A stretch of 62,428 nucleotides of DNA from Thermoplasmata archaeon. GTDB lineage: Archaea > Thermoplasmatota > Thermoplasmata > WALJ01. Below the pieces are notes generated by a model that had not been told where the DNA came from, searched no databases, and saw only the letters and a program-made list of their open reading frames with translations. Below, in pieces: positions 22,773-37,963 of the stretch. The stretch covers positions 1 through 62,428 of the forward strand of contig JALTFR010000015.1 of the NCBI GenBank assembly GCA_027006785.1, read 5' to 3'. The translations under genes and the position numbers were made by a program. The stretch's first letter is position 1, and each line of letters opens with the position of its first letter.

Positions 22773-25700
22773 TTACCACTCTATACTTATGTCACAGGGC
22801 TCTTCCACATAGACCCAGTATGCGTTCCCGGATATCATGTAGTCCGATGCGCCCATGTGGTATGTGTTCCCGCTGGCATCCAGGCCCTCCAGGTACTTCC
22901 AGTCAAGGCCTGCAAGTGCGGATGAGACCTTCATATCGCTTCCGCTGGGGAATCCTATGAGGTTCCAGCCTTTGTTCAGGTGTATCACAGTGCTGGTTAT
23001 GGGCGCATTGTATGAGCCTTTCAGCGTATCCCCACTTATCACATGCACATAGATACCCATGGTGTTGTCCACGAGCGGGAACCCTGCGTTGAACTTCGCA
23101 TCCCTCTCCTTGTTATAGGTATACCACTGGCCATTGACATACACCATAGCCCTGTCCCATTCCACGGAATAGAGGGCGTCCTCTATGCTCATCGGCTCTG
23201 TGGCCCAGGGAAGCGTCAATGCGTTCCATCCCTCATGTACGGCCTGGGAGGAATATGTGTACGGTGCCTGCCTTACGGAGAACTCGCCGAAGGAATCGGT
23301 CTCCGCAAATATGTTTCCTCCGGACTCAACCCAGCCTGTCTGGCAGACCTGCCATTGACCTGTGTATCTGTTGAAGGTATAGAGCCTCATGTCGTGCTCA
23401 TCCACCCCATCTGGAACATCTTCTGATGTGTAAGCCATCCTTATGTCCGCATTCACGAGGGAGACATCTATATTTGAACTGGGCACTATCTGCAGCTTTC
23501 CTGCTTCCCTGATGATTATCAGCCTACCATCGGACACAGGATGTGCCAGTTGCATGTCTACACTAACTCCGGTATCGGAAACCGGGTTTATGCTAGGTCC
23601 TTCAGGCATATCCATATCCGTTATTATCTCCATTGAGGGCGTGTAGCCACCTCCGGCATAGAATGCGTCCATTGAATCGAAAACCATTCCATCCACCACT
23701 ACATCCACGACATATATTCCTGAGAGCCATGATGTGTCCATCCTTCCCGTGAATACGGAATCTCCGGCGCTACTATCGCCATGCGTTCCGTCATCGTAAA
23801 GTGGCAGCGCTATATGCTGTGAAGACCTGAGCCCTCTTACCACAAGGGAAACCGATGATGCATGGTATCCGCTGTACATGGATAGCTCTATCGTACTGAT
23901 GCCGCCATTTCCTGACCTTACCTTAGAGGATGGCTCTGATATGTGGAGAGCGCTCACCGGATCTTCAAATCCCCATCCTGCTTTCACGAAGAAACTGTCA
24001 TCTGACTCTCCCGGCCCGTAGCCGTCCTTTTCAGCCCTTGCATGCACCACATATTCCCCAGCAGGGGCATCATCTCCGAAGGAGTAGGTCCCGGTGTAGA
24101 TTCCAAAGAATTCCTCTGATACAGGTACGCTCACATTGTTTCCCTCGGGATCGGTGACCCACACGGTCAGGCTCGCGTTACCAACCTTGTATCCATCGGA
24201 CAGCACCTTTACGGCTATCCCTGCTTCGTCATCAATACCCTTTATGTAAAACTCGCTGTCGGTGCTCACCTTCACCATAAGGTTGTGTTGAGGGCCGTCC
24301 ACCTCCATGTCCTTCGAGGCCATGTTGTTGTCCAGATTGCTTTCTGCCGGGTTGCTGTCGCTTACCACCACTATTATTGTGTGATTGCCCTGTATGTCAA
24401 ACCAATCCATGTATGCGGTCCATTCGTAATACACGGTTTTTGAGCCGCCTGCAGGAACATAGACATCGTATTCCCTGTAGATCATATTCGAATCGTCCAC
24501 ATCATCTATGTAGAATGAGACAGTTGCCTCAGCATCTGCCCTTCCAATATTGTGCACCTCTGCGCTTATGTTCACTGTGTCCCACATACACACACATCCA
24601 CATCCATCTTCGTCGTAGTATGAAATGTCTTCCGGAGATATGGAAAGGTCAGGATGTCCGGAAACGGATATGGTGACAGAGGCGGAGTTGTTGGAATAAT
24701 CTCGGTCTTCAGGGTTTACATTCTCCACCTGAACTATGATCGTGTGGTTTCCTTCAACGGCGCTCCACGGTGCATTGACTGTCACCTCTCCGTTCGCAGG
24801 TACGGGGACATCGTCTTCCCTGTAAATCAGGTTATTTTCACTTACTTCGTCGAGGTAGAAGGAGACGGTGCATGTGGCATTCTGAGCCTTATGAGATAGG
24901 TTCTGTATCTCTCTTTGCTCCGTAATGGTGGCATCGTCCATATATGCATCTCCGCCGCATCCGCTCTTTCCACCAGTGTCTCCGAATATGAGTTTGTTCA
25001 TCTTTTCATCCGTAATGCGAGTGCCCCTGTATATCTCATTTCCATTGACGCTGAGGACATATTCTTTTCCCTCCACATTCAAGTCAAGCCGGTACCAGGT
25101 GTTGGAAGAAAGAGTGAAAAGGTCATTTCCGACATAACTGAAGTTATCCAGCATATCTATGTTAAAATTATCATCCAGCACAGCACCCATTTCATAAGAT
25201 GGATTATGTGGGCCGCTCATATTTCTCAGTTCCAAAAGCCTGAAATCCTGATATTCCTGAGATTTCTCAGGAAGATATACCCATACCTCTGCATTGAAGT
25301 TGTTCGAGAAATTGAATGTTCCCTGAATATGTGGACCTGTGTTTGTATTCGGGTCTGACTGAGAATGTGCACAATAATCAGGAGAATGACTCAATCTGTC
25401 CGTAACTTCCATCACTCCTGAAGGTATCCAATCACTGACATACCATTTATCGAATGTTCCGTCATCGAAATTGTCTGAGAAAAGGATTTCACTTTCGGTT
25501 GAGTTATCCCAGATATCATGGTCACCGTGTATTGTAGCAGATATCGTCATGTTGTCCCCGGCTTTCGGGGAATTATCGGAAAACGATATGTCGGAGACCG
25601 AGAGGTCAACATCAGATGATCCTACGGAGACGGTTCTCTCTGCAATGTTGTTTGAAAGGTCTCGGTCATCCGGATTGACATTCTCCACTTTGACGATTAT

Positions 25701-27413
25701 GCTGTGCTCTCCTTTAACGGCGCTCCACGGTGCATTGACTGTCACCTCTCCGTTCGCGGGTACGAAGACATCGTCCTCTTTGTAAATGAGGTTCTCAGGG
25801 CTGACATCGTCGAGGTAGAAAGAGACTGTGCATGTGGAGTTCTGGGCCTTGTGCACATGTGTTTGATGAGGAGAGTAATCGGTGACTGCCACATCGTCGA
25901 AGTACACATCTCCCCAGCATCCGCTGGAACCGCCGAAATCACCCATTCCAGTCATATTCACAGGCCTATCGTCATATCGGGTGCCGTTGTATATGGGATT
26001 GCCGTTTATGAGAATCTGATAGTTGATTCCATCTATCTCTATTCCCAGTTTATACCATGTTTCCGGCTGGAAAGAATATACATCATATGCCCACCTGCTG
26101 TTAACCTCAGGAGACTTTTCTTTTTCAAATATTGCAAGAGTGTAATTGTTATCATACAGATAGGCCTTTATCGCATATGTGGTCCTGTTGGCAACCACAC
26201 TGTATGGTGGGTCCGGAGGGTCGTTCAAGCCATTTATCAGAGACCTGATCTCCAACAATGACATCCGCTCTACATCCTGTGTCCTTTTTGGGAGATATAC
26301 CCAATCCTCAACGAGAACATGGTTCGTATCCTTGAAATCACGGGCTATGAATGGTGCAGTATTGGTATCCGGGTCTGATTGAGAGTGAGCACAGTAATCC
26401 GGTGAATGGCTGAGGTTCCCTGTCACTTCCATAACTCCATCGGGGTTCCATCTTCCGATGAACCACTTGTTAAAAGTACCGTCATCAAAATTGTCTGAGA
26501 AAAGAACGCTGCTGTTTCTGCTGTCCCATACATCATAGTCTCCGTGAATTGTGGCAGATATCGTCAGATTGCTGCCCGCCTCTGGAGAAGTATCAGAGAA
26601 GGAGATGTCCGAATCCGATATTGACACATCGGCATCTTCTGATGTCGGAGAAATATCTCTGATGGTTATGTCATCCCAGTATGCATCACCCCAGCAGCCG
26701 CCGCTTCCCCCTATATCACCAAGAATAAGGATATTGAATGGATAAGAGGTGTTTATGTCCACATTTTCCTGAAATATTAAGTTATCGTTAATATATACGG
26801 AATAGTTCGTACCACTAATCTGTATATCAGTTTTGTACCATGTTTCGGGCTGAAGTTCATAGATGTTCTGCGCATAGATGATGTTGCCCTCTTTATTGGA
26901 TATATGCTTCCAGACATCTATATTGTAATTGTCGTCCCTTAAGCCAATATTCATCCGGTTGAAACAATTGCTATCATTGCCCCATCCATCGAATCCACCC
27001 TTGATGTAAAGAATATCGAAAAGCCTAAAACCTTCAAATTCTTGAGACTTCTGCGGTAGGTAAAAGTAACCCTCAACAGAAAGATTGTGAGTTTCGTTGA
27101 ATTGCGCCGCTATATTCGGTGCCGTATTTGTGTTCGGGTCCGATTGAGCATGTGCAGAGTAGTTTGGCGAATGGCTTACTGCATCCGTGGCTTCCATCGT
27201 CCCATCTGGATTCCACTTATTGATTCTCCACTTATCCAAGGTTCCGTCATCGAAATTGTCCTGAAAAAGAATATTTCCATTCGAATCTTCGACCGTTCCT
27301 GCCACATTTGACCTACCTCCACCCATAGACCATACCGGTATAGCGCTCAGTACCATTAAAAATGCGACAAAGAGCGCAATCACCAGCATTTTGCTCTCTA
27401 ATTTTCTGGACAT
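22773..27413 (-). CDS. Giant secreted LamG/CARDB surface protein with C-terminal GWNLI module
   Basis: 1546 aa with a signal peptide (LVIALFVAFLMVLSAIPVWS). Three concanavalin-like segments begin with DNFDDGT near residues 51, 308 and 648. The second and third each sit inside a split CARDB fold: the CARDB strand (ISFSDTSPEAGSNLTISATI) comes before, and the rest (CTVSFYLDDVSPENLIYKED, VTVNAPWSAVKG) after. An uninterrupted CARDB follows at about 905-1040, then Ig-like segments, then the C-terminal two-lobed module from about 1390 (GWNALTLPW, VDNTMGIYVH, GWNLIGFPS) ending SIEW. There is no transmembrane helix, so attachment must be non-covalent or by partner. GGAGGATTTTC supports the start. Probable adhesin or substrate-binding surface protein. 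Confidence 0.82.
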   Translation of the reverse strand: MSRKLESKMLVIALFVAFLMVLSAIPVWSMGGGRSNVAGTVEDSNGNILFQDNFDDGTLDKWRINKWNPDGTMEATDAVSHSPNYSAHAQSDPNTNTAPNIAAQFNETHNLSVEGYFYLPQKSQEFEGFRLFDILYIKGGFDGWGNDSNCFNRMNIGLRDDNYNIDVWKHISNKEGNIIYAQNIYELQPETWYKTDIQISGTNYSVYINDNLIFQENVDINTSYPFNILILGDIGGSGGCWGDAYWDDITIRDISPTSEDADVSISDSDISFSDTSPEAGSNLTISATIHGDYDVWDSRNSSVLFSDNFDDGTFNKWFIGRWNPDGVMEVTGNLSHSPDYCAHSQSDPDTNTAPFIARDFKDTNHVLVEDWVYLPKRTQDVERMSLLEIRSLINGLNDPPDPPYSVVANRTTYAIKAYLYDNNYTLAIFEKEKSPEVNSRWAYDVYSFQPETWYKLGIEIDGINYQILINGNPIYNGTRYDDRPVNMTGMGDFGGSSGCWGDVYFDDVAVTDYSPHQTHVHKAQNSTCTVSFYLDDVSPENLIYKEDDVFVPANGEVTVNAPWSAVKGEHSIIVKVENVNPDDRDLSNNIAERTVSVGSSDVDLSVSDISFSDNSPKAGDNMTISATIHGDHDIWDNSTESEILFSDNFDDGTFDKWYVSDWIPSGVMEVTDRLSHSPDYCAHSQSDPNTNTGPHIQGTFNFSNNFNAEVWVYLPEKSQEYQDFRLLELRNMSGPHNPSYEMGAVLDDNFNIDMLDNFSYVGNDLFTLSSNTWYRLDLNVEGKEYVLSVNGNEIYRGTRITDEKMNKLIFGDTGGKSGCGGDAYMDDATITEQREIQNLSHKAQNATCTVSFYLDEVSENNLIYREDDVPVPANGEVTVNAPWSAVEGNHTIIVQVENVNPEDRDYSNNSASVTISVSGHPDLSISPEDISYYDEDGCGCVCMWDTVNISAEVHNIGRADAEATVSFYIDDVDDSNMIYREYDVYVPAGGSKTVYYEWTAYMDWFDIQGNHTIIVVVSDSNPAESNLDNNMASKDMEVDGPQHNLMVKVSTDSEFYIKGIDDEAGIAVKVLSDGYKVGNASLTVWVTDPEGNNVSVPVSEEFFGIYTGTYSFGDDAPAGEYVVHARAEKDGYGPGESDDSFFVKAGWGFEDPVSALHISEPSSKVRSGNGGISTIELSMYSGYHASSVSLVVRGLRSSQHIALPLYDDGTHGDSSAGDSVFTGRMDTSWLSGIYVVDVVVDGMVFDSMDAFYAGGGYTPSMEIITDMDMPEGPSINPVSDTGVSVDMQLAHPVSDGRLIIIREAGKLQIVPSSNIDVSLVNADIRMAYTSEDVPDGVDEHDMRLYTFNRYTGQWQVCQTGWVESGGNIFAETDSFGEFSVRQAPYTYSSQAVHEGWNALTLPWATEPMSIEDALYSVEWDRAMVYVNGQWYTYNKERDAKFNAGFPLVDNTMGIYVHVISGDTLKGSYNAPITSTVIHLNKGWNLIGFPSGSDMKVSSALAGLDWKYLEGLDASGNTYHMGASDYMISGNAYWVYVEEPCDISIEW
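24756..24797 (-). repeat. 42-bp exact repeat, copy 1 (inside LamG/CARDB gene)
   Basis: Identical to 25716-25757. The offset is 960 bp, exactly 320 codons, so the two copies are equivalent points in consecutive in-frame CARDB/LamG units. It encodes part of the VTVNAPWSAV strand. Confidence 0.85.
25716..25757 (-). repeat. 42-bp exact repeat, copy 2 (inside LamG/CARDB gene)
   Basis: Identical to 24756-24797 at a distance of 960 bp. Exact identity inside otherwise diverged 320-residue units points to recent unit duplication or gene conversion. Confidence 0.85.
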
Positions 27414-28379: not shown

Positions 28380-28428
28380 TGATAGAAATCATCATAAATG
28401 TGAATCACAATACAAGAGAGGTGATTTG

Positions 28429-31400
28429 TTGAAAGGAAGAAAAGAGAAGACAGTCAGTTTTATACTGATAGGAATCATGGTGCTGTCGGCTTTCTCCGCA
28501 TTCTCTATAGGAATAGGATACAACAGCAACACAGAAGTGAACGAGACGGCACCTGTGTTCGTTTCGGAGCACACCCTGCATTACAGCATTGACGGGAAAA
28601 CAGGCACGGTGCCCGGTACCTCCGGAGACATTGTTTCAGGAGTCAAATACGTGCAGGAGAACGGGAATATATATCTCACATATCAGGACTACAGCTCCAG
28701 ATGGGGCAATGTAAAGTACATGGAATACAAGGATGGCTCATGGTCAAGGCCTGTTACGGTTGGCCATGACTACGCTGACTTTACCAGAGACGGGGGGCGT
28801 TCATATATAACCTCATCCGACATGGGAAAGACATTCATCACTATAGCAGACGGTAGCGAGATGCAGACAGTTCAGATATCTGACGAAAGGGCCATAGCCA
28901 CGAGCGTCGGGGTTGTCGGAGGATATGTTACGGCATTCTGGGCGGACATACACGGCAATGTTTATTCTGCATCAGAGAACAACTGGTTCTCCACACCTCA
29001 GAACATATACCATACCGACAATTCCATATACAGACTTTCGTTCGATGGAAACCTGAACATAGCAGAGAGGGACGGTGGCCTGACGGTGAATACCGTCCTC
29101 TCGAAATCGGGAAGCGGATGGAGCATCGAAAGCCAGAACATCTCAAGCAAGAGCATGAGAAGTACCCCTTCCGAAGAGACTGATGACATAGCCAGCGAGT
29201 TCCATCAGAGGCAGAATGAGACCGGAAGGTGGCTGATGATAGTCTACCTCAACGGAGACAACAACCTTGGAGATACCGGTGGACTAAGCGGTGGAGAGTA
29301 CGATGTCGGAGATTTGAATGAGATGGAGAGCGCATACGACAACGCCGATGTGGGGAAGTTCGACATAGTTGTTCTATGGGATCACAAGGGCAGCGATGAC
29401 CCGAATACCCATGTTCTGTGGATAAGGAATGACACCACCGGAAAAGAGACCACAGATTCCACCGATACTGTGAAATCTCCTAAACTTGATAATTACTATC
29501 CGCTACTTGCAAATGATGGAGACCACGAGCTCTATATGAGCAATTATAGCGTATTTGTTAATTTCGTCGAGTGGGCGGTGCAAAACTTCCCCGCTGAACA
29601 TTACTTCGTCGATATGTGGGACCACGGCGGCGGTTATGACGGTGTTATATGGGATGACACCAACGGGGGAGATTCGTGGCCAAGGGACCACATAACAATA
29701 GAGGACATGCACAATGCCACACTGCAGATTCACAATGATCTTTATCCTACTCTTGGCAGGACCCTGGATATCATAGGCTATGACACCTGCCTGACCATGC
29801 ACGGAGGCATTCAGTACCATAACAAGATAATGTTCGACTATGTGGGAGCCTCAGAGCATACTGAAGGTGGATATGGATGGTCCTACGACACCGTCCTCAA
29901 AGAAATGGTCGAAACACAGGGACAGATAACTGCAGATAAACAGGCATACAACCTCGCATACCATGTCAATGATGATGGTGGAATAGTCACGTATGCCGTT
30001 GTGAACACCACCCTCTGGGATTACAAGTGGATGCCGGCATATAACGCCCTTGCACAGGCTATGAAGCACAAGGCAGGGACCGAGAACAAAGGAATAACCG
30101 ATGCGTTCAGCAATTCCGAGACAGCGGACAGCTCATACTGGAAGACAGCCCACGATTACTGGGACATGATAAACAACCACATCATAGGAGATGGAGAGAT
30201 ACACGATTCCAACATCCTGTATTGGGCACACAGATGTGTGGATAACATGACCCGCAATAGCGGTGCGTATTCATCCGGAAAGCTCATACCCTACTCTCAG
30301 GATACGGATACCAGCGGAAAGAAGCTGATGATGGCGGATGAGACCGATAAGGGTGCGGTCAACAGCCATGTAAATCAGGCATGGATATTCCAGGAGAATC
30401 AGTGGGACGAGATGATAAACCAGGTGGATGCCAAAGCTGATGTGAACAATGAAGAGCCTACAGTCACTCTGGATAACCCGCATGACGGAGATATAATCGC
30501 AAAGTCCGTGGGAACGGTTACCATAAGTGGAACGGCTTCCGACCCGGATGGAAGTGTACAGAAGGTCCAGCTGAAGATAGACAGAGGCTATTGGTTCGAT
30601 GTGTCAGGCACGGATTCATGGTCATACACATGGGATATAAGCAACGTTCCATGTGGGTGGCACCACATAATGGCCCGCTCCTATGACGGAACGGACTTCT
30701 CAACCGAGTGGCCGGGAATAGATGTTAAGATAATACCCAACAGTCCGCCGACAGTGAGCCTCGATTATCCGAAGGGCGGAGAGATAGTATCAGGAAATGT
30801 GAACATACAGTGGACTGCAACAGACCCGGATAATGACACGCTCAGCATGGACCTATATTACAGCAACGATGGTGGTAACACATGGAACACCATAGCCACA
30901 GGCGAGACAAACGATGGTTCATACGCATGGGATACATCCTCACTGCCTGATGGTGTGGATTACATGATAAAGGTGGTTGCAACGGACACAGTACCTCAGA
31001 GTTCCAACGCCAGCTCCGGATTCTTCTCCATAGACAACATACCTGATGACCAGTGGTATCTGCAGGTTCAGACAGGTTCATCCGGATACAACAACATGAG
31101 CATGGAACCTGTGGAAAATGCCCCCTCATTCATATCGACAAACATAACGAGCACAGGTGACTTCGTCCTTGGAAGATGGGTAAGCCATCAGTTCAGCTCA
31201 GACAAGAGCGTAGATGGCAACTGGACCTTCAACATATGGGGCAAGGTCAGCGATGCGAGCGCCGCGGCAGGCCATCTCTATGCAAAGATATATGCATATG
31301 ATGGAAACAACCTGAACCTCATATACTCAGGTTCAAACGACGAAGAGGATGTCTCATCATTTGGAACCTATCACATGTTCACCTGGACAGAACATGTGAA

Positions 31401-32937
31401 TGGAAAGATAAACGCTGGAGAGAGCATAGTCGTTGAGATACTGCTCAATGCGACCAAGGGTTCGAGCACGAGCTCATCATACACCTATGCCAACCACGAG
31501 AGCACAGAGTACGGTACACAGAGTGGAGACTATACGAACACAGAAGCAAGCGATGACTCATACGAGGCTCTCAGCGAATCCTCCGGTGGAACAGATGTCA
31601 CCATACTGAGCACAGACTTCGAAAATGGTCTTCCATCCGGATGGACCATAGACAACGAAGGCTCTGGTGGCGGATGGTCTGTCACAAGCGGAAGCACATC
31701 AAGTGGAGATTGGGCATATGATGATTCCGATGCCGCAGGAAGCAGTGCGACACAGGATGACTACCTGATAACTCCGATAATGGACTGCAGTTCATATTCA
31801 AGTGTGACACTGAGCTTCTATCACGATTATAGGCACTATAACGAGAACTCCGATGAAGGTGGATTTGTGGATGTCAGCAATGATGGCGGCCAGACATGGA
31901 CAAATGTGTATCATATATACAACAACGATGTGCAGGAGACAAAGAGCATAGACATATCCAACCTAGCAGCGGGCTATTCTCAGGTTCAGGTCAGATGGCA
32001 TTACATAGCCTCCTATGACTATCACTGGGGAATAGATGATGTCAGGATAAGCGGAGACAAGCAGAGCATGCTGGTGCACACATGGGAGTTCAACATAGGT
32101 GATGGTGGAACAGGCCTCGAGTTTCAGGTGGAGGCATACCACAACTCCAACTCAGACGGTGACGATTTCGCATTCTATTATTCCACAGATAACTCCAGCT
32201 TCACTCAGATGCTCACAGTGACAAAGACCTCGGACGACAACACGATACAGACCTATTCCTTGCCTTCAGACCTCACTGGAACCGTATATGTGAAGGTAGA
32301 GGACACCAACAGGGACCCGAGCAACGGAAATTCTGACAGCGTGTACATAGACTACATGGCGATAAAGGTGACCAAAGGCGCTCCAGAGATGACGATAGCC
32401 ATGGATGCACTATCCTATGAAAGCAATGTACTGCCCGTGATCTCAGAACCACCTATGATGACGGTGAACTTCCAGACAGGATGGAATCTGATATCCCTGC
32501 CATGGCTCACATCACCGACAAGCATAACAGATGCGCTCAATGGAATATCCTGGGATAGAGCAATGGTATATCAGAACGGGCAGTGGTACACCTACAACAC
32601 AGCAAGAGACTCAAAGTTCAACCTCGGATTCCCGATGATAGATAACACAATGGGAATATGGGTGCATGCATCATCGGACGGGCAGCTATCAGAGGAAGAG
32701 CCTTCTGTGAGCAGCACAAGCATACCGCTGCACGAGGGATGGAACCTTATTGGTTATCCAAGCAGTAGTGCAAGTGAGATATCCAATGTGATGTCGAACT
32801 TCGACGGCCAGTACGACATGATCCAGATGTACGACGGAAACAGCATAGTTACACTGTCAGCAACGGACAGCATGGAGTACGGCAACGGATACTGGGTGCA
32901 TGTGACCACACCGGGGACGCTTACTGTGAACTGGTAA
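28429..32937 (+). CDS. Secreted clostripain-like cysteine peptidase (family C11) with Ig-like, MAM-like and C-terminal GWNLI modules
   Basis: About 1502 aa. Signal peptide (ILIGIMVLSAFSAFSIGIGY), a beta-rich N-terminal region, then a C11 peptidase domain at about 260-640. That domain contains WLMIVYLNGDNNLGDTGGL, VVLWDHKGSDDPNTHVLWI, VDMWDHGGGYDGVIWDDT with the catalytic His (about 399), and DIIGYDTCLTMHGGI with the Cys (about 454). Two Ig-like domains follow (VTISGTASDPDGSVQKVQLK; NIQWTATDPDNDTLSMDLYY), then a MAM/choice-of-anchor-like domain (DFENGLPSGWTIDNEG), and finally the two-lobed module from about 1345 ending TVNW. C11 enzymes cleave after Arg/Lys. The TTG start at 28429 is spaced correctly from GAGAGGTGAT; TTG 28426 is possible. 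Likely digests extracellular protein. Confidence 0.88.
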   Translation: MKGRKEKTVSFILIGIMVLSAFSAFSIGIGYNSNTEVNETAPVFVSEHTLHYSIDGKTGTVPGTSGDIVSGVKYVQENGNIYLTYQDYSSRWGNVKYMEYKDGSWSRPVTVGHDYADFTRDGGRSYITSSDMGKTFITIADGSEMQTVQISDERAIATSVGVVGGYVTAFWADIHGNVYSASENNWFSTPQNIYHTDNSIYRLSFDGNLNIAERDGGLTVNTVLSKSGSGWSIESQNISSKSMRSTPSEETDDIASEFHQRQNETGRWLMIVYLNGDNNLGDTGGLSGGEYDVGDLNEMESAYDNADVGKFDIVVLWDHKGSDDPNTHVLWIRNDTTGKETTDSTDTVKSPKLDNYYPLLANDGDHELYMSNYSVFVNFVEWAVQNFPAEHYFVDMWDHGGGYDGVIWDDTNGGDSWPRDHITIEDMHNATLQIHNDLYPTLGRTLDIIGYDTCLTMHGGIQYHNKIMFDYVGASEHTEGGYGWSYDTVLKEMVETQGQITADKQAYNLAYHVNDDGGIVTYAVVNTTLWDYKWMPAYNALAQAMKHKAGTENKGITDAFSNSETADSSYWKTAHDYWDMINNHIIGDGEIHDSNILYWAHRCVDNMTRNSGAYSSGKLIPYSQDTDTSGKKLMMADETDKGAVNSHVNQAWIFQENQWDEMINQVDAKADVNNEEPTVTLDNPHDGDIIAKSVGTVTISGTASDPDGSVQKVQLKIDRGYWFDVSGTDSWSYTWDISNVPCGWHHIMARSYDGTDFSTEWPGIDVKIIPNSPPTVSLDYPKGGEIVSGNVNIQWTATDPDNDTLSMDLYYSNDGGNTWNTIATGETNDGSYAWDTSSLPDGVDYMIKVVATDTVPQSSNASSGFFSIDNIPDDQWYLQVQTGSSGYNNMSMEPVENAPSFISTNITSTGDFVLGRWVSHQFSSDKSVDGNWTFNIWGKVSDASAAAGHLYAKIYAYDGNNLNLIYSGSNDEEDVSSFGTYHMFTWTEHVNGKINAGESIVVEILLNATKGSSTSSSYTYANHESTEYGTQSGDYTNTEASDDSYEALSESSGGTDVTILSTDFENGLPSGWTIDNEGSGGGWSVTSGSTSSGDWAYDDSDAAGSSATQDDYLITPIMDCSSYSSVTLSFYHDYRHYNENSDEGGFVDVSNDGGQTWTNVYHIYNNDVQETKSIDISNLAAGYSQVQVRWHYIASYDYHWGIDDVRISGDKQSMLVHTWEFNIGDGGTGLEFQVEAYHNSNSDGDDFAFYYSTDNSSFTQMLTVTKTSDDNTIQTYSLPSDLTGTVYVKVEDTNRDPSNGNSDSVYIDYMAIKVTKGAPEMTIAMDALSYESNVLPVISEPPMMTVNFQTGWNLISLPWLTSPTSITDALNGISWDRAMVYQNGQWYTYNTARDSKFNLGFPMIDNTMGIWVHASSDGQLSEEEPSVSSTSIPLHEGWNLIGYPSSSASEISNVMSNFDGQYDMIQMYDGNSIVTLSATDSMEYGNGYWVHVTTPGTLTVNW
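32523..32561 (+). repeat. 39-bp exact repeat shared with the S8 peptidase gene, copy 1
   Basis: Identical to 37546-37584. It lies in the first lobe of the C-terminal module and is the longest exact run in a stretch of about 190 bases (32483-32674) that is roughly 85 percent identical to the S8 gene by hand alignment. Confidence 0.9.
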
Positions 32938-32946
32938 GTGGACACC

Positions 32947-32971
32947 AAAACCCCTTTCTTTTTCTGTTTTT
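32947..32971 (+). terminator. C-run/T-run terminator after the clostripain-like gene
   Basis: AAAACCCCTTTCTTTTTCTG followed by TTTTT begins nine bases after the TAA. No stem. One of the clearest examples of the recurring signature. Confidence 0.55.
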
Positions 32972-33052
32972 GAATATGGAAAAGTTTTTAAAGATTATGT
33001 ACATTAATGGTATTATACGGCCGATACCTTCGGTTACTATGGAGGAAAAAAC

Positions 33053-36000
33053 ATGGATGAAGTTCGAAAATATATGTTCTACATGCTTGCCATGCTCTTC
33101 GCCGTACTGATGCTCATTCCTGGAAGCAGTATCATGTCCGGGCACGGAGCGGCTGGACAGGATATGGTACTCGTTGACTCCGAAAGTGCCAATCTGATGG
33201 AAGCGATGGGTGCAGAGATATTCGTGGATTATGGAAACGGTTTCTACCTCATGAAAGCACCTGTCGGATTGAAGGAAAGGATTGAAGGGAGCGATATAAA
33301 GGCAGTTTGGATGTCCGAAAAACGCAGCATAGACCTGTATCCATCTTCATACAGGTTCAATCCTTCCAGAGGAGTGCCTGAGATTCCTTCAAACCTAAAA
33401 GGAGATTCAGATATCTACATCGTTCAGTTCGTTGGCCCTGTAAAGGCAGAATGGGTGAAGAAGGTCAGAGATTGCGGTGTTCTGGTGCTGGACGATCTTC
33501 CGAAATATGCCATGATTGCAAGGATGTCACCGGATACTGCAAATGTGGTCAGGAATATGCCGGAAATCGCATGGGTCGGGCAATACGAGCCCACATACAA
33601 GATCGCATCAGGCATAGATACGACTGGCAGTGAAAAGAAGATGCTCTCCGTGCTTCTTTTCAGAGATTCTAATGAGAATGCGCTGGCGGAATATCTCTCA
33701 AGAAGTGGAGTTACTGTTATGTCAATCCAAGACAGAAGCCTCATAATCTCCGCACAGGAGAGCCAGATACCGCTTATCGCAGGTCTGAAAAGCGTGGAAA
33801 AGATAGAGGCTTATCATCCCCCAAAACCGCTTGACCTTCAGGCGGACAAAATAATGCATGTCAGGGAGATGTGGTATCCGAACTACACAGGGCTCGGAAC
33901 AAGGTTCATAGGTATCGGCCAGGTCATAGGCATACAGGATACCGGTTTTGATGAAGGAGATGCTGATGCCGGGCCAAACGACCTCTTCCAGGGCCCTGTC
34001 GGAGACAGGGTCGTAAGATATAAGGACGAAACAAGTGGTTCTGACCCAGACGGTTGGCATAGTTTTGATCACGGAACCTTTTCCTGCGGTCTTATTGCGG
34101 GAAACGGCTGGTCGTGGGAGAAGGAATACGGGTGCAATGTCGATGACTATAACTGGGACTGTGCTGAGCCAGTGGGTGGTGCGCCGGGAGCAAAGCTATC
34201 AATAGATGGAATAATGAGTGGAGATAGTGGTACGCTCCAACCCAGCGCCTCATACTGGGATAAAGAATACGATGACGGCGCCAGAATATTCTCCAACAGC
34301 TGGGGAGATTATGTGGGTGATTATTATGCAGAATATTCGGCTATTACAGATGATGAGTGCAATGCGGACAACACAAGGTTGTATATCTTTGCTGCTGGCA
34401 ACCAGGGGCCTCAGAACGATACGCTTACCGATACATCCCAGGGAAAAAATGTTCTGTGTATAGGCGCGACTGAGAATTTCAGACAGGAAGGCAACAATGG
34501 GGTCCGGGCAGAAAGAGTGGCGGATTTCAGTTCCAGAGGAGGAAATTTTAGCGATACAAGAATAAAACCGGATTTAGTGGCTCCGGGAACAGCGGCTATA
34601 TCGCTCTCTGCAAGAGGGCAGTATGAAAGGGAAGGCAACAATGGAGGATATCATCCTTATGCCCTCTCAGGCATTGACCAGTATGACTGGAACAACAAGG
34701 CTCCGGGACAGGATGGAGCACCTGATTATCAGTGGGGGGAGGGCACTTCTGTCTCAGCGCCTGTTGCTGCAGGAGCCGCGGCGGTCATAAGGCAGTACCT
34801 CACAGATACCAGCTACAGCAATGACCCGAACTCGCAGATAATAAAGGCCCTTATGATAAACGGTGCCAGGAGGCTTCCGAACATCAACTATCCTGGATAC
34901 GATCAGGGCTGGGGTCGTATAGATGTGAAGAACTCTATCCTACCAGAGCCCCCAACAACCCTGCAATACACTGAAGATGTTATGCAAGATACCGGAACAT
35001 GGAATGCAGCATCTGATGGAGGCATGTCTCTGGATGTCTCATCGGCAGATATTCCCCTCAAGATAACCTTGGTATGGGTAGATACGACCGGCAAAAGCCT
35101 CAACAGGGACCTTGACCTGAAAATTACCGACCCGAACGGCCATGTCTATCATGGAAACGCATATGGCACCGATGGATGGACAGTTCCCGATGAGACAGTC
35201 GCAAACACTGCCGACACCTTCCTGGGAAGCTGGGACAGGGGCGACGGATACGATGGAGTGAACAATGTGGAGCAGGTGGAGGTCCGGCATCCTGCAACAG
35301 GAACATGGACCGTTGAGGTCATCGGACACAATGTACCTTCGGCCACACCGTTCGCTCTGGTCGTCAGGGCAGACATAGGGTCAATGAGGCCGCAGTATGC
35401 CGTGAATATGCAGATTCCGGATGCAGACACACTGAGAATAGCTCCAGGAGGCGCACTGGAACTTCCTGTGACGATAAGAAACTACGGGACAAGCACAGAT
35501 ACCATAGATCTGGAGGACAATGTGCCATATGGCCTGCATACAGAATACACCTATGGTGGAGATGAGAAGACATCCTATGTCCTTGATTCAGGAGAAGCGA
35601 GAACATTGATAATGACCATAAGAGCGAATTCCAGCCTTTCTCACGGAGCATACAGGTTCCATACATCTGCCATATCCTCTGGAGACTCGAGTGCCAGGTC
35701 GGTGCGGGATTTGAAAGTGGATGTCATAGACCCGAATGAAAGGACGCCGCCAACGGTGAAGGTGACCGATGAAACAGGAAATGAGCTGTATCCTGCGGTA
35801 ACAGCATTCACGGATGCAGATGGGAATTCATGGGTCTTCGTCGCCTATGTTGAGGAAAGGCCTGTTTCAACAGATGGGATATACGGTGGGGATACGGTAA
35901 TGGTAAAGTATGCTCCGATAGGCTCCGATGGTATGCCAGAAGCGTGGAACGGCCCGTATCAGCTGACTAAGCTTAATGAATTGCCCCGCGACCTGAGGAT

Positions 36001-37963
36001 AATTCATGGAAATGGTGGCACATATCGTGATAGAGTATGGGTCATATGGATTGGGAACAATCCGAATGCCTCTGTAAATTCTGGAGGCATATCAAATGGA
36101 ACGTGGGGAAGAATAGCTTGGGCAGACAAGGGCGACTATAGTTCTTGGACATGCCCCGCTACTGGAACTAACACAACAATAGATGAGAACGGCGGCTCCG
36201 AAACATACAATACCAAGAGGGTCAACAGCATACAATACAGACAAAGCAGCAGCGAACTTGTCTATATATTCGAACATCTCGACTTCGATAACAATGGAGC
36301 TATAGAGGCAGTCCACAATGCTTACTGCACTTCCACAGATGGAGGTGCATCATGGTCTGCGGCACAGGACTACGACCCTGGCGGTGACTACTTCTTCTTC
36401 CCCAACATAATGGATGGCGGAAATGATTACAATGATGTGGTCTGGAGCTTCGTCTATCACAGAGGAAGCAACGGAAACGACAGAGACCTCTCATGCATGG
36501 TCTATGACGGCTCATGGGGTGGAGACTCCGGTGGAGACACAAAGGAGACAGATGTGTTGGACAATGACAACAACCTGATGTTCCCTGTTGTTGCATACGA
36601 TAAGAGCTCCGGCTCAGCAAACAGGGTCTTCTTTGCAGTCTTGGACGATACAAGCAGAAAATACCAGATAAGCGTAGGGTATCATGAAGGGAGTGTCTCG
36701 TCCGGAATCCCACCTCCCGATACTAGCAACGCGTGGGGAAATGTCAAGGGCCCATTTGCCACGGAGGTTTTAGATGTGGACTATGACAAGAGACCATTGA
36801 TGAATATGATATCCACACCCGATGATGGAGGCATGTGGATACAGTATCTAGAAAGGTCAACGCCTCTCGGAGCGAATATAAAGGCCGTATATAGCAACGA
36901 CCAGTTCGACAGCGTGTCATACTATAATATAGCATCAAATTCCTACGCAAAGGGACATCAAATGAGCTCCTCCGTAGAGATTGGAGGCACTGACTATGTC
37001 TACACCACATATCACATGAGCAAGGGAGAATTGGATAACGCTGATTACGACATATATCTGGCAGTCTATCATTCCGGATTCGAGAACGATGCCGATAACC
37101 TGCCCCCTGAAATCCTCCGGCCAGCCGTCACTCCTGCAATCTATAACTCCTCAAAAGAAGCGTATGAGATAGACCTCGGCAGGAACAGTTCCTTTGAAAT
37201 CACTGCCACAGTTGACGACACTTGGACCGGAAACAGTGGGATATCCTCTGCAGAGTGGATGGAATCCGACACAAGTGTTACAGACCCGACAAGCCTTGAC
37301 TGGGACTCGGCATCTTCCATGAATCTCACTTCACACACACCGGTGGAAAAGATATCTGCTGAACTCAGTCCTTCATGGGAAGACGACACATACCACAGGA
37401 TATGGATAAAGGCAGAGGACTCGGCAGGCAACACAGCATACACATACATTGACCTCTTCGTTTCAAGAGCGCTGACCCCTGTGGAAGTGGACTTCCAGGC
37501 CGGATGGAACCTGATATCCCTGCCGTGGCTCACATCACCGACCAACATAACAGATGCGCTCAATGGAATATCCTGGGATAGAGCGATGGTGTATGTCAAT
37601 GGCCAGTGGTACACATACAACAAGGACAGGGATGCAAAGTTCAACCTCGGATTTCCTCGGGTAGACAACACAATGGGAATGTGGGTGCATACCGCGTCAG
37701 AGGGACAACTTTCTAAGAATACATCCCCCATAACCACACAAATCTTCCTGTCAGAGGGCTGGAACCTTGTGGGTTATCCCCGCGATACCGTAAAGACAGT
37801 TGGCGATGCGCTCTCCTCATTTAACGGCACTTACGACATTGTGGAGACATACGACCCTGCGCTCGGAGATATCATAGAACTGGCAGACAGCGACAACATG
37901 GAGGTCGGAAAGGCATACTGGATTCATGTTACCTCTACAGGAACGTGGAGCGTCGAGTGGTAA
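33053..37963 (+). CDS. Secreted subtilisin-like serine peptidase (family S8) with C-terminal GWNLI module
   Basis: 1636 aa. Signal peptide (MLAMLFAVLMLIPGSSIMSG), an N-terminal propeptide-like region to about residue 285, then a subtilase domain with Asp296 in GIQDTGFDEGD, His340 in SFDHGTFSCGLIAGNG, oxyanion Asn450 in AAGNQGPQND and Ser568 in EGTSVSAPVAAGAAAV, so the catalytic set is complete. A jelly-roll domain follows (LDLKITDPNGHVYHG to GTWTVEVIGHN), then a NEW3-like domain (VTIRNYGTSTDTIDLEDN), a long beta-propeller-like region (about 900-1370), an Ig-like segment and the two-lobed module from about 1479 ending SVEW. GGAGGAAAAAAC gives a strong SD site. It lies tandem to the C11 gene, both on the plus strand. 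Confidence 0.92.
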   Translation: MDEVRKYMFYMLAMLFAVLMLIPGSSIMSGHGAAGQDMVLVDSESANLMEAMGAEIFVDYGNGFYLMKAPVGLKERIEGSDIKAVWMSEKRSIDLYPSSYRFNPSRGVPEIPSNLKGDSDIYIVQFVGPVKAEWVKKVRDCGVLVLDDLPKYAMIARMSPDTANVVRNMPEIAWVGQYEPTYKIASGIDTTGSEKKMLSVLLFRDSNENALAEYLSRSGVTVMSIQDRSLIISAQESQIPLIAGLKSVEKIEAYHPPKPLDLQADKIMHVREMWYPNYTGLGTRFIGIGQVIGIQDTGFDEGDADAGPNDLFQGPVGDRVVRYKDETSGSDPDGWHSFDHGTFSCGLIAGNGWSWEKEYGCNVDDYNWDCAEPVGGAPGAKLSIDGIMSGDSGTLQPSASYWDKEYDDGARIFSNSWGDYVGDYYAEYSAITDDECNADNTRLYIFAAGNQGPQNDTLTDTSQGKNVLCIGATENFRQEGNNGVRAERVADFSSRGGNFSDTRIKPDLVAPGTAAISLSARGQYEREGNNGGYHPYALSGIDQYDWNNKAPGQDGAPDYQWGEGTSVSAPVAAGAAAVIRQYLTDTSYSNDPNSQIIKALMINGARRLPNINYPGYDQGWGRIDVKNSILPEPPTTLQYTEDVMQDTGTWNAASDGGMSLDVSSADIPLKITLVWVDTTGKSLNRDLDLKITDPNGHVYHGNAYGTDGWTVPDETVANTADTFLGSWDRGDGYDGVNNVEQVEVRHPATGTWTVEVIGHNVPSATPFALVVRADIGSMRPQYAVNMQIPDADTLRIAPGGALELPVTIRNYGTSTDTIDLEDNVPYGLHTEYTYGGDEKTSYVLDSGEARTLIMTIRANSSLSHGAYRFHTSAISSGDSSARSVRDLKVDVIDPNERTPPTVKVTDETGNELYPAVTAFTDADGNSWVFVAYVEERPVSTDGIYGGDTVMVKYAPIGSDGMPEAWNGPYQLTKLNELPRDLRIIHGNGGTYRDRVWVIWIGNNPNASVNSGGISNGTWGRIAWADKGDYSSWTCPATGTNTTIDENGGSETYNTKRVNSIQYRQSSSELVYIFEHLDFDNNGAIEAVHNAYCTSTDGGASWSAAQDYDPGGDYFFFPNIMDGGNDYNDVVWSFVYHRGSNGNDRDLSCMVYDGSWGGDSGGDTKETDVLDNDNNLMFPVVAYDKSSGSANRVFFAVLDDTSRKYQISVGYHEGSVSSGIPPPDTSNAWGNVKGPFATEVLDVDYDKRPLMNMISTPDDGGMWIQYLERSTPLGANIKAVYSNDQFDSVSYYNIASNSYAKGHQMSSSVEIGGTDYVYTTYHMSKGELDNADYDIYLAVYHSGFENDADNLPPEILRPAVTPAIYNSSKEAYEIDLGRNSSFEITATVDDTWTGNSGISSAEWMESDTSVTDPTSLDWDSASSMNLTSHTPVEKISAELSPSWEDDTYHRIWIKAEDSAGNTAYTYIDLFVSRALTPVEVDFQAGWNLISLPWLTSPTNITDALNGISWDRAMVYVNGQWYTYNKDRDAKFNLGFPRVDNTMGMWVHTASEGQLSKNTSPITTQIFLSEGWNLVGYPRDTVKTVGDALSSFNGTYDIVETYDPALGDIIELADSDNMEVGKAYWIHVTSTGTWSVEW
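37546..37584 (+). repeat. 39-bp exact repeat shared with the C11 peptidase gene, copy 2
   Basis: Identical to 32523-32561. Both encode ITDALNGISWDRA in lobe one of the C-terminal module. The second lobes of the two genes are much less alike, so the homogenised patch is local. Confidence 0.9.

Follow-up and report, generated by a model that had tools for sequence, protein, structure and literature searches.

A duplicated C-terminal module on unrelated secreted proteins of Thermoplasmatota and its possible role in surface retention

In archaea with a single membrane, what is known of the retention of large secreted enzymes concerns chiefly archaeosortase tails and simple membrane helices. Archaeosortase tails (PGF-CTERM, PEF-CTERM) are C-terminal and common to many unrelated exported archaeal proteins; each is a tripartite segment of ~25 residues, made up of a motif, a transmembrane (TM) helix and a basic end, and it is cleaved. 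The T9SS type A sorting domain (TIGR04183 / Por_Secre_tail) is likewise found at the C-terminus of many unrelated secreted proteins per genome, in this case as a folded domain. As far as we know, neither the T9SS machinery nor an outer membrane is to be expected in Thermoplasmatota. Reports on sediment members of Thermoplasmata include extracellular peptidases of the C11/C25 type (PMC6461988).

Here we describe a module that shares with both systems its C-terminal position on many unrelated exported proteins. In contrast to the archaeosortase tail, it is folded, 160 residues long and contains no TM helix. It was recognised in a 62,428-nucleotide stretch of a Thermoplasmata archaeon genome, which is referred to below as the window.

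A two-lobed block at the end of three secreted proteins

Three secreted proteins of the window carry the block. The C11 (clostripain) protein P0001 (1503 aa; 28426..32937, plus strand, TTG start) has a signal-like N-terminus and Peptidase_C11 at residues 273-639, and the S8 (subtilase) protein P0002 (1636 aa; 33053..37963, plus strand, ATG start) has Peptidase_S8 at residues 288-621. The LamG/CARDB protein P0003 (1546 aa; 22773..27413, minus strand) combines three concanavalin-like lectin regions with CARDB and, upstream of the module, a choice-of-anchor X domain (NCBIfam NF041940; residues 1203-1240, 23694..23807, minus strand; E 6.8e-8, 32.1 bits against a curated cut-off of 25). All three have a signal-like N-terminal segment and end in a homologous block of ~160 residues, the GWN module: residues 1344-1503 of the C11 protein (32455..32934, plus strand; stop codon 32935-32937), 1476-1636 of the S8 protein (37478..37960, plus strand; stop codon 37961-37963) and 1387-1546 of the LamG/CARDB protein (22776..23255, minus strand; stop codon 22773-22775). 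With the C11 block as reference, identity is 60% and 47% for the other two, and 62 of the 163 alignment columns are invariant. The final residues are TVNW (C11), SVEW (S8) and SIEW (LamG/CARDB), with the stop codon directly after each; nothing in the way of an archaeosortase tail, and no TM segment, follows the module.

The original prediction, made from the letters of the window alone, had proposed just such a common C-terminal block on secreted proteins of unrelated function, with neither a TM helix nor a PGF-CTERM signal behind it. The alignment (47-60% identity), the profile, the signal-like N-termini and the diverse passengers described below bear this out, and the phenomenon proves wider than that first reading could see. 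The three modules match the profile far beyond chance, at E ~1e-87 to 1e-91, values that are self-matches since the profile was built from these same three; ten further copies of the genome that were outside the profile score E 1e-13 to 1e-71. The LamG/CARDB module lies outside the interval originally given, 32463-37960, and on the minus strand.

The suspected internal duplication was borne out as well. In the C11 protein, lobe 1 spans ~32455-32709 and lobe 2 ~32710-32934 (plus strand), and hhalign, given ten first lobes against ten second lobes, aligned 73 columns with a probability of 97.6 (E 4e-12). In other classes of the phylum the lobes are nearly identical to each other, as at locus L140 (NNISGCNLILKWNNSRNDFDVYVPGSPNNF versus DNISGCNILLKWNNSRNDFDVYVPGAPDF). 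Sequence and models together show the module to be an independent extracellular domain of ~160 residues that derives from duplication of a ~75-residue lobe. The AlphaFold2 model based on 34 natural modules reached pLDDT 97.2 and pTM 0.90, and that of an outgroup module from another class pLDDT 95.2 and pTM 0.89, with the same order of elements in both, a repeated series of strand pair, helix, strand pair and strand pair. The final strand is predicted to extend to the C-terminus. The last eight columns of the module carry 2.29 bits, against a module average of 2.20, and so are no better conserved than the rest; the conserved positions are core-like Gly, Trp and Leu, with aromatic residues frequent among them, and do not form an end motif.

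Neither Pfam nor NCBIfam matched the three window modules, and in searches with 34 and 18 module relatives nothing rose above cut-off, sub-threshold hits being of the kind of a motif-level DUF1737. Among 34 module members there was no NCBIfam or Pfam match to sorting-domain models, TIGR04183 / PF18962 included. PDB chains gave no match by sequence, and Foldseek found none in the PDB at E <= 0.001 for either AlphaFold2 model (TM to query <=0.30 among the matches listed). A match to an already described domain, for which the original prediction had allowed, was thus found in none of Pfam, NCBIfam and the PDB. The only significant fold match was to a predicted BFVD model of protein A0A8D9C8P8 from an uncultured marine phage, labelled 'putative hemin binding protein' (E 8.9e-5, probability 1.00, TM 0.65 over the module); its fold is module-like but its identity is 14% and its structure is a prediction only. 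A search by sequence for viral or phage carriers returned none. Our literature search found no paper that uses the motif, and none of the words 'anchor', 'S-layer' and 'sortase' appears in the main text of the MBG-D genome paper.

Distribution, passengers and position of the module

The genome to which the window belongs (1.33 Mb, 90% complete) contains 13 module matches. The module occurs in 23 of 41 close genomes, with the highest counts in G028 (112 matches), G018 (54), G027 (47), G025 (34) and G017 (27), and in 74 of 300 genomes of the class (E <= 1e-8); other classes of Thermoplasmatota have weaker, more distant two-lobed forms. A search of contigs found two close relatives only, and one near match is itself a Thermoplasmata archaeon MAG. 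Outside the phylum, a consensus query detected a complete two-lobed copy in each of two species, Aureibacter tunicatorum at a profile E of 2e-15 and Halobellus ramosii at 5e-10, and additional relatives in Flammeovirga and Methanohalobium.

The passengers are diverse. Among 50 module proteins we counted NosD/beta-helix (14), S8 (7), BNR (4), CARDB (3), C25 (2), C11 (2) and GH18 (2), alongside LTD, pro-kumamolisin, amidase, phosphoesterase and GH35 parts. Within a family, modules on unrelated passengers have a median identity of 47.7% (42.1% within the same genome); between families the value is 28.8% for related and 29.3% for unrelated passengers. The S8 protein of the window illustrates the pattern: compared with L052, an S8-like protein encoded in that same genome, its passenger is 24% and its module 60% identical, while against the S8 proteins of family f16 the two values are 30% and 32%. 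Mapped onto a tree of 80 modules, the lineage labels require 18 changes, where the minimum is 14 and shuffling gives a mean of 52.6; the passenger labels require 21, where the minimum is 10 and shuffling within lineages gives 29.7. By these comparisons the module sequence tracks lineage and not passenger, and the identities and the tree together indicate that, inside each lineage, the module has passed by exchange or copying between exported proteins that are unrelated; some whole-gene duplication is apparent alongside.

Certain gene arrangements deserve mention in their own right. In the 5.2 Mb genome G028, two or three module genes stand next to one another in runs (L071, L102-L105), mostly coding for beta-helix proteins, and the paralogues L105:5883-8951, L103:7672-10593 and L104:6529-9351 have another C-terminal end, ...MxEGYQISTSxTTxFTFIG. 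On contig C17 of the window's own genome, L057:10376-14470 (plus strand) encodes an exported C11-like protein with apparent TPR-type repeats and no module, and it adjoins a module gene.

In 74 of 81 clear module ORFs that have a stop codon, the module ends no more than six residues from it, and in a looser set this is so for 82 of 99 ORFs. Full-length module ORFs have a signal-like N-terminus (L101 falls just below threshold) and almost no further TM segments, as called by a simple hydropathy rule of our own and not by a trained predictor. Across the phylum the module is overwhelmingly C-terminal, but the strictly free C-terminus first proposed is not supported. Four archaeal copies (L047, L058, L068, L077), that of L058 in the same genome as the window, are followed by 68-83 residues that end in a TM helix and an Arg/Lys tail, and in L060, L083/L084 and L116 other domains follow. 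The Halobellus copy lies inside a haloarchaeal surface glycoprotein and the Bacteroidota copies inside LamG proteins, with a T9SS sorting domain (TIGR04183, E 1.3e-8) behind the Aureibacter copy. Placement inside proteins, one of the results that the original prediction had named as counting against it, does occur. Given the internal copies and those that precede TM tails, the module is not a universal free-end sorting tag.

The claim that the module always ends on Trp holds for the three window proteins and, in lineages f1 (18/19), f11 (3/3) and f16 (5/5), for 26 of 27 C-terminal copies, but not in other lineages: the terminal residue is Tyr in f6 and f12, and Leu, Asn, Gly or others in f14, f15 and f18. 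With a last residue that varies and a last strand of unexceptional conservation, the constant feature is a folded terminal domain and not a Trp-ended peptide.

Two further loci show unusual ends. The most divergent full copy in the window's genome, L059:8731-10392 (plus strand, contig C32), belongs to a protein with a lipobox-like signal (FSGC), for which an N-terminal lipid anchor is possible. On a Halobellus ramosii plasmid, L211:1394-6289 encodes a module-bearing surface glycoprotein without a membrane tail, and the gene downstream has a membrane tail but no signal peptide, so that the pair may be one split gene.

Alternative anchors and candidate partners

In the genome of the window, of which 87% is covered by our secreted-protein counts, the module is present on 10 of 43 soluble secreted candidates compared with 1 of 17 that have a C-terminal TM segment; most soluble secreted candidates longer than 550 residues carry it. 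The same genome encodes an archaeosortase, PGF-CTERM-type proteins (L187:6453-9041, L187:9096-10358, L179:4954-6420, L159:10282-11463 and L055:12293-13549) and PEF-CTERM-type proteins (L170 and L152, the latter at L152:13449-14933). Archaeosortase anchoring and the module therefore coexist in one genome. Where homologues of module passengers have no module, their C-terminus is formed by PGF-CTERM (L187, L155), VPEF-CTERM (L152, L160) or a membrane helix (L168, L058:15385, L171, L172). The module thus occupies the anchor slot of its passengers, a placement that does not by itself prove anchoring.

Other secreted proteins of this genome also stand out. L170:8281-10119 (plus strand, contig C27) encodes a secreted protein of 613 aa with two near-identical repeats resembling a distant lobe, each with an inserted DYNGDGQITAADVV loop that is dockerin- or EF-hand-like; the next genes encode a PEF-CTERM protein and the archaeosortase. 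Three large secreted proteins, L153:6268-9549, L192:4406-7645 and L207:2309-4531, have a common, different ending, WRIYIPxxTxxDxYxSxVxYxIxY, perhaps a second C-terminal class.

The original prediction had also expected the module to go with a specific membrane partner, and this part did not hold up. Among relatives of the class, PF09721 archaeosortase and module are both present in 22 genomes, the module alone in 2, archaeosortase alone in 3 and neither in 14; counted by family, the figures are 12, 1, 1 and 6. Some of these PF09721 and module calls (G007, G019) rest on weak matches, and the association (Fisher p 2e-6 for genomes, 1e-3 for families) is confounded by shared ancestry. In other classes just 12 of 36 module genomes have PF09721, and the near-complete genomes G050 and G144 have ~10 modules each and no PF09721. 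We accordingly rejected archaeosortase as an obligate partner at the level of the phylum, its association with the module being confined to the class. A PGF-pre-PGF gene lies directly after the module gene in Halobellus and Methanohalobium; this family (TIGR04213) is present in 2 of 41 relatives and absent from the window's own genome, and was rejected as the partner for Thermoplasmata. Beyond other secreted proteins, module genes have no recurring neighbour.

Proposed surface retention, rival explanations and known systems

What survives of the proposed role in targeting, anchoring or partner binding is a weaker form, an exchangeable surface-retention domain in Thermoplasmatota; the strict free-end tag and the specific membrane partner are not supported. 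Our preferred reading, to which we give a probability of roughly 0.45, is that the module is a swappable C-terminal domain that retains proteins at the surface by binding a common envelope component. An N-terminal signal peptide would export the carrier protein and then be removed, after which the folded module would bind non-covalently to a component present all over the cell surface, perhaps a protein of the S-layer or matrix or the glycan on it. In this way the cell would hold on to peptidases as well as beta-helix and lectin-like proteins without a membrane anchor, by means of a module that takes the position of the archaeosortase (PGF/PEF-CTERM) or membrane tail seen elsewhere in the same genome. 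Surface retention is consistent with the C-terminal placement (74/81), the unrelated passengers, the high copy number, identities that follow lineage and the alternative tails on homologues, as well as with the choice-of-anchor X domain that the LamG protein has ahead of its module and the single topology of two independent high-confidence models. That the target lies on the module's own cell, and what this target is, we infer from this pattern. Against retention stand the failure of archaeosortase, PGF-pre-PGF and gene neighbours as obligate partners, the redundancy of a second anchor in the four TM-tailed copies, and the internal placement outside the phylum, in Bacteroidota ahead of a T9SS sorting domain. 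The lineage clustering could also stem from repeated recent duplication within genomes, with no selection by a partner, and passenger labels do keep some signal within lineages (21 changes versus 29.7 when shuffled).

The internal copies and the outward-facing position that the module would have ahead of a membrane tail fit an ordinary adhesion or carbohydrate-binding domain, which would have become C-terminal by domain shuffling and would aim the enzyme at an external substrate (detrital glycans, cell debris or other cells) rather than at its own cell. The hydrolases, lectin-like and beta-helix proteins among the passengers, the internal copies in LamG proteins of Bacteroidota and in a surface protein of a haloarchaeon, and the many conserved aromatic residues all suit this explanation. 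We nevertheless consider it unlikely: a single lineage-diverging domain sits on passengers with very different likely substrates, a carbohydrate-binding module has no need of the strict C-terminal position seen in Thermoplasmatota, and no carbohydrate-binding fold or Pfam domain was matched.

Another explanation makes the module a passive cap, a very stable beta fold without a ligand that would shield large modular exported proteins from proteolysis or unfolding at the carboxy end. A rigid predicted fold whose last strand lies at the C-terminus, conservation at core-like Gly/Trp/Leu positions and not in an end motif, and host organisms that export many peptidases would all agree with this; yet TM-tailed and internal copies cannot be caps, and where homologues lack the module the slot holds a membrane or PGF-CTERM tail and no other cap, which makes the cap quite improbable. 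We regard as more improbable still that the module is a folded signal by which a dedicated exporter or sortase would recognise the C-terminus of its substrates, in the manner of the T9SS CTD. The many-to-few pattern, with one domain of fixed length at the end of dozens of exported proteins that are otherwise unrelated, and the in-class co-occurrence with PF09721 (Fisher p 2e-6) would be expected of such a signal, but the association is confounded by phylogeny and most module genomes outside the class lack PF09721 (12/36 have it), copies exist inside proteins and before TM tails, conservation of the last strand does not exceed that of the rest (2.29 vs 2.20 bits), and we know of no need for a second export step in one-membrane archaea.

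If surface retention is correct, the module, a folded domain that is exchangeable with archaeosortase and membrane tails and numbers ~50 to 110 copies per genome in some cases, without a library entry or a solved fold, would be a second general way to keep secreted enzymes at the cell, and it would bear on how sediment Thermoplasmata keep their exoenzymes. A broader and rather doubtful proposal is that of general non-covalent, domain-based anchoring, in which one fold would dock dozens of exported proteins to a single lineage-specific receptor, in parallel to and exchangeably with archaeosortase anchoring, and would co-evolve with that receptor. At the least, the module defines a protein family by which many hundreds of unnamed proteins could have their ends annotated.

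The comparison with described systems sets the module apart from each. Archaeosortase tails require PF09721, whereas across the phylum the module does not. The T9SS sorting domain has no sequence match to the module, and the Aureibacter protein, with the module inside and the T9SS domain at its end, has both, so that the two are distinct parts. Choice-of-anchor domains (NF041940 and similar) imply by their name a variable C-terminal anchor, the very slot that the module fills: the choice-of-anchor domain is the constant part, and the module would be an anchor-like end absent from the NCBIfam list.
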